Assembly (NCBI GenBank): GCA_903889245.1
Contig: CAISWQ010000071.1
Location: forward strand, 1-53,201
Direction of reading: 5' to 3'
DNA length: 53,201 nucleotides
Source of the DNA: an uncultured Lentisphaerota bacterium
GTDB lineage: Bacteria; Verrucomicrobiota; Kiritimatiellia; CAIQIC01
This document shows, piece by piece, positions 2,533 through 50,919 of this stretch. A program made the translations under genes and the position numbers. The stretch's first letter is position 1. Each line of letters starts with the position of its first letter. A model generated the notes under the pieces. The model ran no database searches. It was not told the origin of the DNA and saw only the letters and a program-made list of their open reading frames with translations.

Positions 2533-5500
2533 CTAAAACCCTGTAGGACCCCCCAGCAAGACGCGACGGGTGGCGACATCAGGATAATCGGCGGCGAGCT
2601 TGCGGGCCGCGGCGTCGCTGGCCGCGTCGCCCAAACGGGTGAGCGCGATGGCGGCGCAGTGGCGCGTGTCGGGCGCGTTGCGCAAATCGCCGACCACCTT
2701 GAGCAGAGCGGGCGCGGCGCGGCGGTCGCCGAGACGGCCGAGCGCCCAGGCGACACCGGCGCGCCAGCACGGCGTCAGGTCGTTATGCAGGAACAGCACG
2801 CCCGGTCCGAGCGGATCGGGGACGCCACTCGCGGCCTCCGGCGGCGACTGCTCCAGCGCGGCGATCAGGAAGTCCGCGGAGCCCCCATCACCCAGATGGC
2901 CGAGTGTGCGCGCGACGAAGAAGCACACCCAATGTTTGAGCGGCAGTTCCTGCACCACCGGGATGCCGCGGTCGAAGACCCGCGCGATGGTGTTCGTCAG
3001 CGCCTGATAACGCGTGAACACCTCGCGCAACCGCGGCGCCACGGCGCGATCGCGGCAGACGAGCGAGAGGATTTGCGCGGCGCGGATTTCCGGCCCCGGC
3101 TTGCCACCCCACGCGCCGTGGGTCCGCGCAAGCGCGGCGGCGATTTCCTTGTCCGGCGTCGCGCGCGTATCGCCGAGCGTCGCGAGGCACGTCTCCACCA
3201 CCGCCGCGCCGCGCTCGCTGCGGCGGATGATGCGGCCGATGACCGTCTCATAATCATCGCACGCGGGGAACAGCGCGCGGTCGAAGTCGGTCGGCACCGA
3301 CTCGATCAGCCGCGGCGCCAGTGCCGCGACGCTCGTCGCGCCACGCGCGTCGAGCGCCTCGGCGAGGAAGTAGTGGATAGGCGAGGCGTGACACGCCATC
3401 AGCGCGCCATGATCACCATACCAATGCGTGTAGGCGGGATAATCGCCAAGCGCAGCGAACGCGGCGATGAGCGCGGCTTCCGCCTCCGGCGTGGGGATCC
3501 GGCCGAGCGCCTCGGCGGCGGCCTCGGCAAAGAACAGGTTGCCGGTCGCCGGCTGGCCGTGCTGCTTCAGGATGCCGGCGAGCAGCGGCACAGCCGCGGC
3601 GTCGTGCAGGTAGCCGAGCGCGCGCAGCGCGGCTTGCGCCGTGCGTGGATTCACATCGGCCAGCGAGTTGAAGCGGGCACCATCGCCCTGATGCGTCTTG
3701 CGCCACTCCGGCAGCGGATTAACCTGGCAGGCGCGCCCCACGTAGGCACGCAACGCCGCGCGCGCCGCCTCGCCTCCGGTGTGACCGAGCGCCACCGCCG
3801 CCCGCCGTACCACGTCGCGGTTGTCGCTGCCCAATCGCGCCACCAACTCCCGCTCGATGTTGTCCCACGAATTCGTTTTGAACCACTCGTGCCCTTCCGC
3901 CCTTCGATGTTCGCTGTTGGATGTTCGGTGTTCGCTGCTCGTTCCTGCTTCATACCCCGTCAGGTTTTCCAACGCGATGTGCGTGGCGCCGGCGACGTCC
4001 GGATCGGCCGCGTCGAGCGTGGCGAGCAGCGGCGGCACGGAGTCGCGCGTGCCACAGGCGGCCAGCGCGAAGGCGGCGGCCACGCGCACCTCGCGCACCG
4101 GCTGCTGCAAACACTCGGCCAACGCCGGGGCGGCGGCAGGGTCGCGGAAGATGGCGAGACGTTGTGCGGCCGTTATTTTTTCCGCGGCGCTGCCGCTGCG
4201 CAGTTGCGCGATGAGTGCGGCGACCTCCTGCGCGCCGGTCGCCAACGGATCGGCCAGCACATCGTGGCGGTTCAGGCTGGCGACCTCGCGGTAGCGGTCA
4301 AACTGCATCTCCATCAGGCCGGTGACGGCGGCGTTGTTGCCGCGGAAGCGATGCGCGGTCGCGCCCCCGGTCAGCTTGAGCGGCGGCGTCCGCAGCGCCT
4401 GCATCACCGCCGGCGCCGTCGGCGGCGTGGACTGGCGCGACTGATGGCAGCCCACACAGCCGCGCTTCTCGCCGGGCCGCACGTAGATCCACGACATCTC
4501 GTTGAGCTCCGCGCGCCCCTCGCCGTCCACGGCCTGGAACGCGAGCGCCGTATCGGCCGGCACCTCGATGGCGAAGGAGCCGTCGGGCGCGAGTGGGACG
4601 GTGCCAAGCTCGGCGACATCGCTGCCGGCGTGGACGATGTAGGAGTGCGACGACCGCACCATCAGGCCGCGCCCCGCGAGCACGCGGATGGCGCGCACAT
4701 GCGGCCAGCCGGCGGTGGTGTTCTTGGTGAAGCGCGCGTTCTGGCAGAAGAGCACGCCGGTCGCGCGCGGCGCGTCGGCCTTCGCCGCGTCCACCTTCGG
4801 CGGCAGCAGCGGCGGACGCGGGCGCGGGCCGAGGAAAACCGGCGAATGCAGCGGCGCGTCCGGCGCATCGAAGAGCACCGTCACGCGGTCGTGGCCGGCG
4901 CGCGGATCCACGAGGCCGATCTTCTCGTAGCTGTAGGACTGCACCGTGCGCTGCTGCTTTTTCACCGTCTTCAGGTAGGAGCTGGTGCGCGCCGTGGTGC
5001 AGAGCAGGCGGCCATCGGGCAGCGCGGCCACGTCGCCGGCGGCAACGCGGATATGCTGGAGATGCTGCGGCGCCGCGCCGGGCCGGCCGAGCGTGATGTC
5101 GCTGCCCGTGAGGAACGCGACGCGGCCATCGGGCAGCGGCGCGGGGCTGCCGCAGTTGAACGCGCGCAGCCGCCCGCCGTATTCGGGGCCGTTGTCGAGC
5201 CCGAACTCGGTGTAGCCCTCGGTGCCGTCGGGATGGATCGCGTGCAACAGTGTCTCCACCTTGCCACGGTCGAAGAAATTGTCGGAGCGGATGAACAAGA
5301 GCCGGCCGTCGGCGAGCACTTCCGGCTCGTTGTCGAAGATGAAGGTGTGCGTCAGCGGCTTGATGTCGCGGCCCTCGGCGGTCATCGTGAACAGGGCGCG
5401 CGACGGCGGGTTGTGGTATTCCTCGAACGTCCCGATCCGCGTCGAGGTGAAGGCCAGCCGGCCATCGGGCAGCTCGACCGGATCAATATCGTGGAACGGC

Positions 5501-30299: not shown

Positions 30300-30380
30300 C
30301 GTTCCAAAGCCTGGAAAAAACGTGGAGAACTTTTCCAATCCCTGGAAAAACCGCGCTGGCCGTTTCCCATCCCTGGAAAA
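30300..30380. repeat. Palindrome array D (3 units)
   Basis: Units start at 30300, 30331 and 30362, exactly 31 bp apart. The array starts at the stop codon of the hybrid kinase. A TCTGCCTTCTGC word run (about 30395-30410) follows. Confidence 0.9.
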
Positions 30381-33402: not shown

Positions 33403-33690
33403 ACCAGCCGTGGCTGGCGCATAGGCGCGGGCGCCCGAAACACGCAGGCGGATAACGGAAAATTTATGATTTGCGATTTATGATTGATGATTTTCGGTAG
33501 GGTTATTTTTCTGGAGGGCGGCGCGTTGCGCCGCCGTTTCCTTTCTGCCCTCTGCTGTCTGCCTTCTGGCCTCTGCCGCACGCCCGGCAATTTTCAGCGC
33601 GGTGGGCCGTTGTTCCCCTGTCTGGAAAACGCGGCTTGCGGCGCAACGGGCGGCTGGTTAGAGTGCCGCCCGCGCTGTGCGTGGGAGAAC
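33403..33690. other. Non-coding region with word repeats and a lipoprotein promoter
   Basis: No gene is visible. It holds a TTTATGATTTGCGATTTATG word run (33464-33498), a TCTGCC-type pyrimidine word run (33536-33580), one poor palindrome unit (33611-33629), and the promoter at 33636-33664. Confidence 0.6.
33636..33664 (+). promoter_or_regulatory. Promoter of the second beta-rich lipoprotein
   Basis: TTGCGG (33636-33641), 17 bp, TAGAGT (33659-33664). The ATG at 33693 follows a GGGAG Shine-Dalgarno. Confidence 0.55.
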
Positions 33691-39341: not shown

Positions 39342-40757
39342 TTACGCCCGCCGCCGCCAGCGCGCGCCAAACATCCCGTCGCACGGCCCGTCCCACGGCC
39401 AGATCCAAAACGTCCCCGGCTGCCGTTCGCTGGTCAGGGGGTGGGCTGCTGATTCCAGCGTGAACCCAGGATGGGCGCGGCTGAAAGCCTCCACCACGTC
39501 TGTGGTTTCCGCCGTGGTCACTGTGCAGACGGCATAAACCAGCACGCCGCCCGGCCGTACACTCCGCGCCGCGCGCGCCAGCACCTCGTGCTGCACCCCG
39601 GCCTTCGCCGCCACATCGCCGGCCGCGATGCGCCAGCGCATATCGGGATTGCGGTTCCACGTCCCGAGGCCACTGCACGGCGCATCCACCAACACGCCCT
39701 CGAAGACGTCTCGTGTCTCTGGTCCCGCGTCGCGCGTCACCCTGGGCACCATGGCTCGGCAAGCGTCGCCCTCCAATTTTTTTTTCAGACCGGCCGTGCT
39801 CATGCGGCCTCCGGCCGCATCTTCTACGGTACCCTTCCTCCAATCATCCCTCGTAAATCGTAAATCAGAAATACCCATCCCCCGCCCCTCGTCCCTCGTC
39901 CCTCGTCCCGCATCGCGCGTCCGTACGATGGTCACGCCCGCCGCCGCGGCGCGTTTCTCCAGCTCACGCAACACGCCGGCTCGAACATCGGTCGCAAGAA
40001 TCAAGCCGCGATTCTGCATCAACGCGGCCAGATGCAGCGTCTTGCCGCCGGCGCCGGCGCAGACATCCCACCAGCGCTCGCCCGGTTGCGGCGCGCACAG
40101 CCAGCCGACCACCTGCGAGGCGAGGTCCTGCACGATGGCGGCGATGCCCGTCGCCGCGCGCAGCCCTTGCAGATCGGCGGGCGGCGCGACGGCGACCGCA
40201 CCCGCGATTCGCGGATGCGCCGTGGCGCGCGGATTTTTTTGATTGAAGAACGCCAGCGCTGCCGGCACCTGCTCCGGCGTCACGCGCAGCCACACCGGCG
40301 GCCGGCGCTGGAACGCATCGAGATATTGTTCGCTGGTTACGCCGGTCGCCAGCGCCGGCAGCGTCCAGCCCGGCACAAGCTGCTCCATCTGCTTCTCCGT
40401 GCCGAGCAAGGCCGTCAGCGCGCGCGCTTTATCCGCCAACGACGCCGGCGCGGCCGTGGAGAGTTTGAGGCCCGCCTGTTCCGCGAGTTGCTGGAGCGCG
40501 AGTTGCCCGAGGCCCTCGAGCCAGCCCGCCAGCGCGAGCTGCGACGCCGGCGGCAGCTCCCGCAGCCAGCCGCGCCAGCGGAAAAACGCGAAGAGCGTAT
40601 CGCCAAACAGCCGGCGGTCGCGCGCGCCCCACTCGCGATGGGCGCGGCAATGCTCCGCGAATACCTGATCGGCGGGCCGCTGCTCCGCCACCACCGCGTG
40701 TTCCAGCAGCGGCAGCAGTTCCAACAGGCGCGTGGCTTGGGTGTGAGGCGCGGGCAT
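39342..40757 (-). CDS. rsmB: 16S rRNA (cytosine-C5) methyltransferase RsmB-like, with repeat-derived insert
   Basis: A 471-residue enzyme that methylates cytosine in rRNA with SAM. N-terminal NusB-like helical domain (about 1-150), then the Rossmann domain with WDVCAGAGGKTLHLAALM (motif I), VLVDAPCSGLGTWNRNPDMRW (motif IV, Pro-Cys), and VYAVCTVTTAETTDVVEAF (motif VI catalytic Cys). Between motifs III and IV sits an insertion of about 75 residues that is entirely repeat-encoded and has no open-frame break. Whether the enzyme tolerates this is unknown. The start codon abuts palindrome array F. Confidence 0.88.
   Translation of the reverse strand: MPAPHTQATRLLELLPLLEHAVVAEQRPADQVFAEHCRAHREWGARDRRLFGDTLFAFFRWRGWLRELPPASQLALAGWLEGLGQLALQQLAEQAGLKLSTAAPASLADKARALTALLGTEKQMEQLVPGWTLPALATGVTSEQYLDAFQRRPPVWLRVTPEQVPAALAFFNQKNPRATAHPRIAGAVAVAPPADLQGLRAATGIAAIVQDLASQVVGWLCAPQPGERWWDVCAGAGGKTLHLAALMQNRGLILATDVRAGVLRELEKRAAAAGVTIVRTRDAGRGTRDEGRGMGISDLRFTRDDWRKGTVEDAAGGRMSTAGLKKKLEGDACRAMVPRVTRDAGPETRDVFEGVLVDAPCSGLGTWNRNPDMRWRIAAGDVAAKAGVQHEVLARAARSVRPGGVLVYAVCTVTTAETTDVVEAFSRAHPGFTLESAAHPLTSERQPGTFWIWPWDGPCDGMFGARWRRRA
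39706..39930. repeat. Composite repeat insertion inside rsmB
   Basis: Three kinds of repeat in 225 bp: a CGTCCCTCGTCCCTCGTCCC tandem word run with CGTAAATCGTAAATC (39850-39925), a GGCTCGGCAAGCGTCGCCCT element (39753-39775), and an ATGCGGCCTCCGGCCGCAT hairpin (39802-39820). All are in frame. Confidence 0.8.
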
Positions 40758-40837
40758 GTTCCAAGGCTTGGAAAAGTGGGGCGTGGTTTTTCCAAGCCTT
40801 GGAAAATTCCGGCCGGTTTTTTCCAGGGCTTGGAAAC
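40757..40837. repeat. Palindrome array F (3 units)
   Basis: Units start at 40757, 40788 and 40819, all 31 bp apart. The first begins at the ATG of rsmB (minus strand); the last ends 6 bp before the thioredoxin-like gene's stop. The central unit is perfect (TTTTCCAAGCCTTGGAAAA). Confidence 0.92.
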
Positions 40838-50714: not shown

Positions 50715-50919
50715 GGTTCCAGGGCTTGGAAAGCCGGCGGACGGTTTTGCCAGGGATTGGAAAAAGAACGGTGAAATTTTCCAAGGCCGGGAAAAAGCAC
50801 GACGGAAATTCCCGAGGCTTGGAAAAGCGGCAGCCCGGCGTGCCAAGGTTTGGAAAGTTGGCGGCCGGTTTTCCGGGCCTTGGGGGAATGGCGGACGGAT
50901 GTTGCCATGGTTGGGAAGC
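50715..50919. repeat. Palindrome array H (7 units, 30-32 bp period)
   Basis: Units start at 50715, 50746, 50777, 50808, 50839, 50869 and 50901. A further half site CCTTGGAAA lies at 50946-50954. Units become less regular toward the kinase gene. The array fills most of the 418-bp gap between the divergent hmgR and kinase genes and is the longest of the window. Confidence 0.9.

Follow-up and report, generated by a model that had tools for sequence, protein, structure and literature searches.

Heptameric simple sequence repeats of the type (GGGANTN)n have been described in Xanthomonas and Nostoc, and an over-representation of heptamers in many bacteria has been noted since 2007 (PMC4692102); its cause has only been guessed at, the suggestion being how long a stretch of DNA the polymerase touches (as given in PMC4692102 and PMC4679880). 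Direct repeats of the word TAACTGA are found in Beggiatoaceae and cyanobacteria, some of the Beggiatoaceae copies being located inside open reading frames (PMC4679880). Rickettsia palindromic elements and similar MITEs are inserted in frame, and tolerated, in conserved protein genes (PMC2229807). Each of the two, heptamer repeats and palindromic inserts read in frame, is known on its own; what is new here are many degenerate heptamer families turning over in protein loops. No description of such arrays was found for Verrucomicrobia, Planctomycetes or Kiritimatiellota in the literature searched, which does not prove that none exists.

The case described here combines features of the Xanthomonas and Nostoc heptamers, the TAACTGA repeats and the Rickettsia elements. 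The window, i.e. the whole stretch of 53,201 nucleotides that was analysed, belongs to the draft genome of a lake bacterium (125 contigs) and contains a methyltransferase gene with an insert composed of such repeats (Table 1).

Identity of the gene and composition of the insert

The product of the window gene matched PF01189, the Pfam domain of RsmB/F-type enzymes, with an E value of 1.4e-35 and 123 bits against a cut-off of 27. The match was split into two stretches, the stronger of which follows the insert, and both the DAPCSGLG and the VCTVT motif regions were found. The nearest PDB folds of the modelled protein were those of E. coli Fmu (RsmB), 1sqg and 1sqf (Foldseek, E about 1e-16, TM 0.52-0.58 for a model from a shallow alignment), which is consistent with an Fmu-like fold. 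On the curated NCBIfam rsmB model, the window gene reached 151 bits, below the cut-off of 269, as did the insert-free orthologue of G001 with 171 bits, while another gene of the same genome (G000:C29), whose N-terminal part matches NusB weakly, passed with 304 bits. Because the window gene misses this cut-off and G000:C29 passes it, the former is, judged by these profile scores, a second, RsmB-type enzyme, and the canonical RsmB is encoded elsewhere. The initial annotation had taken the window gene for a housekeeping gene, which these scores make doubtful.

Table 1. Positions in the window of the gene, its insert with the repeat blocks, and a further in-frame array
Feature	Position	Strand	Basis
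RsmB-type m5C RNA methyltransferase paralogue, 471 aa, insert-bearing	39342-40757	(-)	PF01189, fold, motifs, core dN/dS
Insert, residues about 281-351	39705-39917	(-)	alignment with 13 relatives; predicted disorder; net +60 aa
Array A, CGAGGGA heptamers (sense), TCGTCCC as written	39874-39909	(-)	TRF period 7, 4.6 copies
Array B, ATTTACG heptamers (sense), CGTAAAT as written	about 39842-39873	(-)	dispersed family
GC-rich perfect hairpin ATGCGGCC-TCC-GGCCGCAT	39802-39820	.	read directly; paired in predicted fold
REP-like unit GGAGGGCGACGCTTGCCGAGCC (sense; GGCTCGGCAAGCGTCGCCCTCCA in window reading)	39753-39775	(-)	dispersed copies
Array C, degenerate GACACGC/GACGCGG heptamers (sense)	39707-39738	(-)	repeat search; aligned with the arrays of G002 and G003
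In-frame CGAACAT array (sense) in a 1373-residue ORF with HEAT repeats	3903-3941	(-)	lag scan, Pfam

The insert is located between the strands E275-279 and E354-358, the second of which precedes DAPCSG. It consists of about 213 bases, mostly repeat DNA, that are read through without a stop from one flanking strand to the other. These strands are about 71 residues apart here and about 11 in orthologues, and the distance from ATDVR to VDAPC is 97 residues here versus 37 in G001 and G005, which corresponds to a net insert of 60 residues. Of the 75-residue insert initially proposed, the existence was thereby confirmed and the size corrected; likewise, the loop is indeed short in orthologues, and the repeat-built region is indeed read in frame, the reading frame being open over its full length.

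In sense direction, the blocks follow each other in the order CGAGGGA, ATTTACG, hairpin, REP-like unit and GACACGC/GACGCGG. All words of the insert are seven-base units; of the three arrays, two consist of variants of related words (ACGAGGG and GACGCGG/GACACGA). Array A contains about three perfect units and six G-runs with quadruplex potential (G4 motif), and the encoded peptide has a high content of Arg, Asp and Gly. The exact tandems CGAGGGACGAGGGA (array A) and CGATTTACGAGGGA had no other occurrence in the pattern search of this genome, the reversed control giving 0. Stretches similar to array B are present elsewhere, among others on C53, C19, C20 and C56 and at window 33456-33493. The latter, a second ATTTACG array, adjoins a GC hairpin and shares 95% identity with the array of the G003 gene over 38 bases. 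The words ACGAGGG and ATTTACG adjoin each other again at C28:101739 and may travel together. The REP-like unit has more than 10 further copies of 89-96% identity, some of which form inverted pairs (e.g. C103:47967/47999 and C8:32175/32207). Y1_Tnp, the REP-type transposase, is present, with weak matches in this genome. The repeat search revealed no inverted repeat flanking the insert, as a fixed unit with terminal inverted repeats would have. Separately, palindromic TTCCAAGGCTTGGAAAA-like units about 31 bases apart were observed at window 30302-30380, 40759-40836 and 50750-50826; this family also occurs in L003 and L008.

A seven-base word regains its frame after three units, so that all three frames of a strand give the identical seven-residue cycle. 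In the sense strand, no frame of CGAGGGA, ATTTACG or GACACGC contains a stop. CGAACAT, CGAGGGA and GACACGC are free of stops on both strands, ATTTACG and CAGAGGT on just one, and the words of the window gene all stand in open orientation. The earlier suggestion that the repeats avoid stops in this particular frame is therefore misleading, and stop avoidance as an argument for the frame of the window gene was rejected since the words are open in every sense frame. Because the composition of the words leaves these three frames open, special selection for a stop-free frame is unnecessary.

Relatives, selection and predicted structure

From a search of 38 genomes, 13 relatives with an orthologue were taken into the alignment. 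Besides the window gene, only those of the congeneric MAGs G002 and G003 carry inserts, of 56 and 65 net residues and at exactly the same point; the short loop without insert was found in the congener G001, in the family members G004 and G005, and in all more distant aligned relatives. The inserts of G002 and G003 show a similar block order with a sequence different from that of the window gene, the order common to both being words that are G-rich or resemble ACGAGGG, then ATTTACG words, a REP-like middle and finally GACACGC words. In the DNA alignment of the three inserts the blocks are related, the REP-like middle unit included. Relative to the window gene, the ATTTACG part has a 20-base gap in both G002 and G003, and array C shows a 27-base expansion in G003 only, the G002 array being as long as that of the window gene. 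In the codon alignment, the insert of the window gene is only 46-50% identical to those of G002 and G003, and its middle part is strongly different.

Because the block order is similar in the three species, the comparison points to one arrival in their common ancestor as the simplest, albeit unproved, history. The initial annotation had read the site as independent repeat families nested in one place; the single arrival accords better with the similar order, and turnover of words is better illustrated by LarC (see below). The perfect CGAGGGA units of the window gene probably reflect a recent expansion, since drift is otherwise seen throughout the insert's sites, and the core shows a dS of about 0.7 relative to the sister species.

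According to the Nei-Gojobori method, dN/dS of the core was 0.21-0.26 among the three carriers and 0.26-0.27 versus G001. The core is under purifying selection, i.e. the enzyme is maintained. For the insert, dN/dS reached 0.92 between G002 and G003, the closest pair (dS 0.43 versus 0.51 in the core), and 0.5-0.7 between the window gene and either of them, where the alignment is poor; full neutrality of the insert is shown for the G002-G003 pair only. In the AlphaFold2 model from a seven-row alignment, mean pLDDT per ten-residue block was 30-44 for residues 281-350; in this shallow, seven-sequence model it was also low at residues 216-280 of the neighbouring Rossmann part. The insert is thus probably disordered, as had been expected from the initial annotation. 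Its peptide is most likely functionless by itself. Since the core is conserved while the insert drifts and is predicted to be disordered, the insert drifts as a near-neutral, in-frame, tolerated loop, in agreement with the earlier notion of a tolerated insertion.

Seven-base arrays in the genome and across the phylum

A lag scan (score of at least 14, periods 4 to 22) was applied to 848 kb of the window genome, a non-random sample since some contigs had been chosen for holding a match to the insert. It yielded 32 segments at period 7, 21 at period 14 and 13 at period 21, and 0-6 segments at every other period, while a Markov-5 simulation of equal size gave 0 period-7 segments; tandem seven-base units are therefore above expectation. 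Because of this excess of 32 over 0 and of the far lower numbers at other, non-multiple periods, the period-7 arrays are not due to chance. The degenerate pattern CGAKKKACGAKKKA was too strict for counting arrays, as the units are imperfect. With a looser threshold, 59 arrays from six genomes fell into 18 families among 1172 possible heptamer classes, the main ones being CAGAGGT, CGAACAT, AAAGCTG (with GAAACCT-like relatives), ACGAGGG, ACAAATG-like words and GATGGCT. The units often consist of a fixed core with variable bases at the other positions. At other loci, different words are combined in different orders, many arrays have no REP-like part, and some form inverted pairs about a short spacer (e.g. 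L079:12653-12744, an inverted CGAACAT pair located at the start of mutS or immediately ahead of it).

About seven of the 32 arrays, the window gene included, are located in frame and stop-free inside genes, as called by a codon-usage score on 180 bases at each side, which for the downstream flank of the window gene is near zero. According to Pfam, neighbouring GH95 genes hold two arrays, each separating the catalytic domain from the C-terminal one; a third array separates the lipoyl domain of a 2-oxoacid dehydrogenase E2 acyltransferase from its E3-binding domain, a fourth is located in the nickel-insertion protein LarC and a fifth in an FGE-sulfatase region; another belongs to the HEAT-repeat ORF of Table 1. 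The GH95 arrays (L087:11385-11424 and L087:13887-13967) are both of the TGAAACC family and occupy the identical interdomain site in adjacent genes. In all four members of the genus the E2 linker has period 7 as its single lag within the range 5 to 11, whereas that of G006 is without period-7 structure. In LarC, a single loop (L076:1054-1084) carries GACACGC-type and TCAGCC-type words in the window genome; in G002 and G003 the words there are of the GACGCGA type, in G001 they are TCAGC, and in G004 and G005 the segments code for repeats of AEG or TED. As different relatives have different words in this one loop, their sequences show a turnover of words at a tolerated site. Additionally, an inverted pair of AAACCTG arrays was observed in G001 within an ORF that has Topo VI B domains (L125:1432-1528).

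Among 289 genomes of the phylum, and with one mismatch allowed, CGAACATCGAACATCGAAC was found in 36 and TGAAACCTGAAACCTGAAA in 41, often in tens of copies per genome, while the reversed controls gave zero in most genomes with few exceptions. The distribution of CGAACATCGAACATCGAAC is patchy, with 0 copies in G001, 50 in the window genome and 210 in a member of another family. In G208, all 37 CGAACAT matches are on one strand, the listed ones within about 15 kb (C1:593712-609161); elsewhere such matches are dispersed. CGAACAT and TGAAACC recur in distant families of the phylum, a recurrence that slippage alone leaves unexplained because simple slippage predicts private words.

Origin of the insert and relation to known repeats

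In our main reading, to which a probability of about 0.7 is assigned, a patch of dispersed seven-base words with a REP-like unit was acquired a single time, by the common ancestor of the three species and in a loop that tolerates it, and has been drifting since. Such a patch would have landed in a loop of the RsmB-type methyltransferase that accommodates extra residues; selection on the enzyme would keep the frame, while the residues of the insert drift and the number of words shifts by slippage. More generally, short arrays may spread by being copied between sites and grow by replication slippage. They would land mostly between genes and be retained within genes where a loop tolerates them and the total is a multiple of three, and their survival there would be favoured by the many words that are stop-free in every frame of at least one strand. 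A wider reading is put forward tentatively: an active process in some members of the phylum might write or rewrite arrays of degenerate seven-base words between and inside genes, continually giving rise to new loops and linkers. The arrays of that reading have a fixed core with variable bases and draw on a limited set of words common to distant families.

According to the main rival reading, the whole insert might be one unit of a mobile composite, either REP- or MITE-like, whose arms are heptamers and whose centre is palindromic, inserted in the manner of Rickettsia elements and mobilized by a Y1 transposase in trans. The dispersal of the REP-like unit, sometimes as inverted pairs, the array pairs around a short spacer as at L079, the second junction of ACGAGGG and ATTTACG words on C28, and the Y1_Tnp genes in all five genomes searched would fit such an element. 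Against it, no fixed unit is apparent, words and their order vary between loci, many arrays are without the REP-like part, neither constant ends nor a target duplication were seen at the loci compared, and the two Y1 matches of the window genome are weak (27 bits); we regard it as unlikely. A selected function of the insert, e.g. as an RNA-binding loop, a basic linker or an mRNA quadruplex, might be suspected from the clear G-run pattern of array A and the Arg/Asp/Gly-rich peptide, but is quite improbable given that the insert evolves almost neutrally in the G002-G003 pair. The absence of the G-run pattern from G003 led to the rejection of a conserved quadruplex.

Heptanucleotide repeats can act as contingency loci in other bacteria. 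As seven is not divisible by three, one unit more or less would shift the frame before the catalytic cysteine and switch the enzyme off; array A has about three perfect units. Such phase variation is nevertheless highly improbable, given short and degenerate arrays whose orthologous counterparts have decayed, and a frame that is intact in all three species, with the core under purifying selection. An artefact of assembly or binning, which the draft state of the genome might suggest and which the initial annotation had considered, is so unlikely as to be negligible, since three separate MAGs carry the insert in frame at the identical site.

The arrays resemble the heptamers of Xanthomonas and Nostoc (PMC4692102) in having seven-base units that are degenerate at fixed positions, dispersed and mostly intergenic, and array A shares with (GGGANTN)n a G-run plus a four-base spacing. 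In Xanthomonas and Nostoc, however, a single type of word prevails and the repeats avoid coding regions (PMC4692102), whereas many families are present here and about one fifth of the sampled arrays are in frame. Like the TAACTGA repeats (PMC4679880), they are dispersed seven-base repeats with a patchy occurrence across distant taxa, their orientation in genes is limited by stop codons, and copies in genes are found at tolerant places. In contrast to the present arrays, TAACTGA is one word, mostly located just upstream of start codons, and its copies in genes are mainly in hypothetical proteins or outside functional regions (PMC4679880). As with Rickettsia palindromic elements, in-frame insertions stand in conserved genes where relatives have an empty site; those elements are units of 105-146 bp with terminal inverted repeats (PMC2229807), while here there is no fixed unit, only short words of period 7. 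The middle of the insert corresponds to REP/BIME in being a short dispersed unit that forms inverted pairs elsewhere, but REPs are extragenic by definition and the copy in the insert is read in frame.

Annotators should note that what reads as a low-complexity segment in such genomes, for instance RGTRDEG or QRSEVRG, can be repeat DNA. Within one genus, many word families, their turnover between sister species and their in-frame use in conserved enzymes are found together, and comparable sites make both the mechanism (slippage or copying) and the cost to the protein measurable. In working genes, the in-frame arrays seem to add a floppy loop that is apparently neither useful nor harmful.
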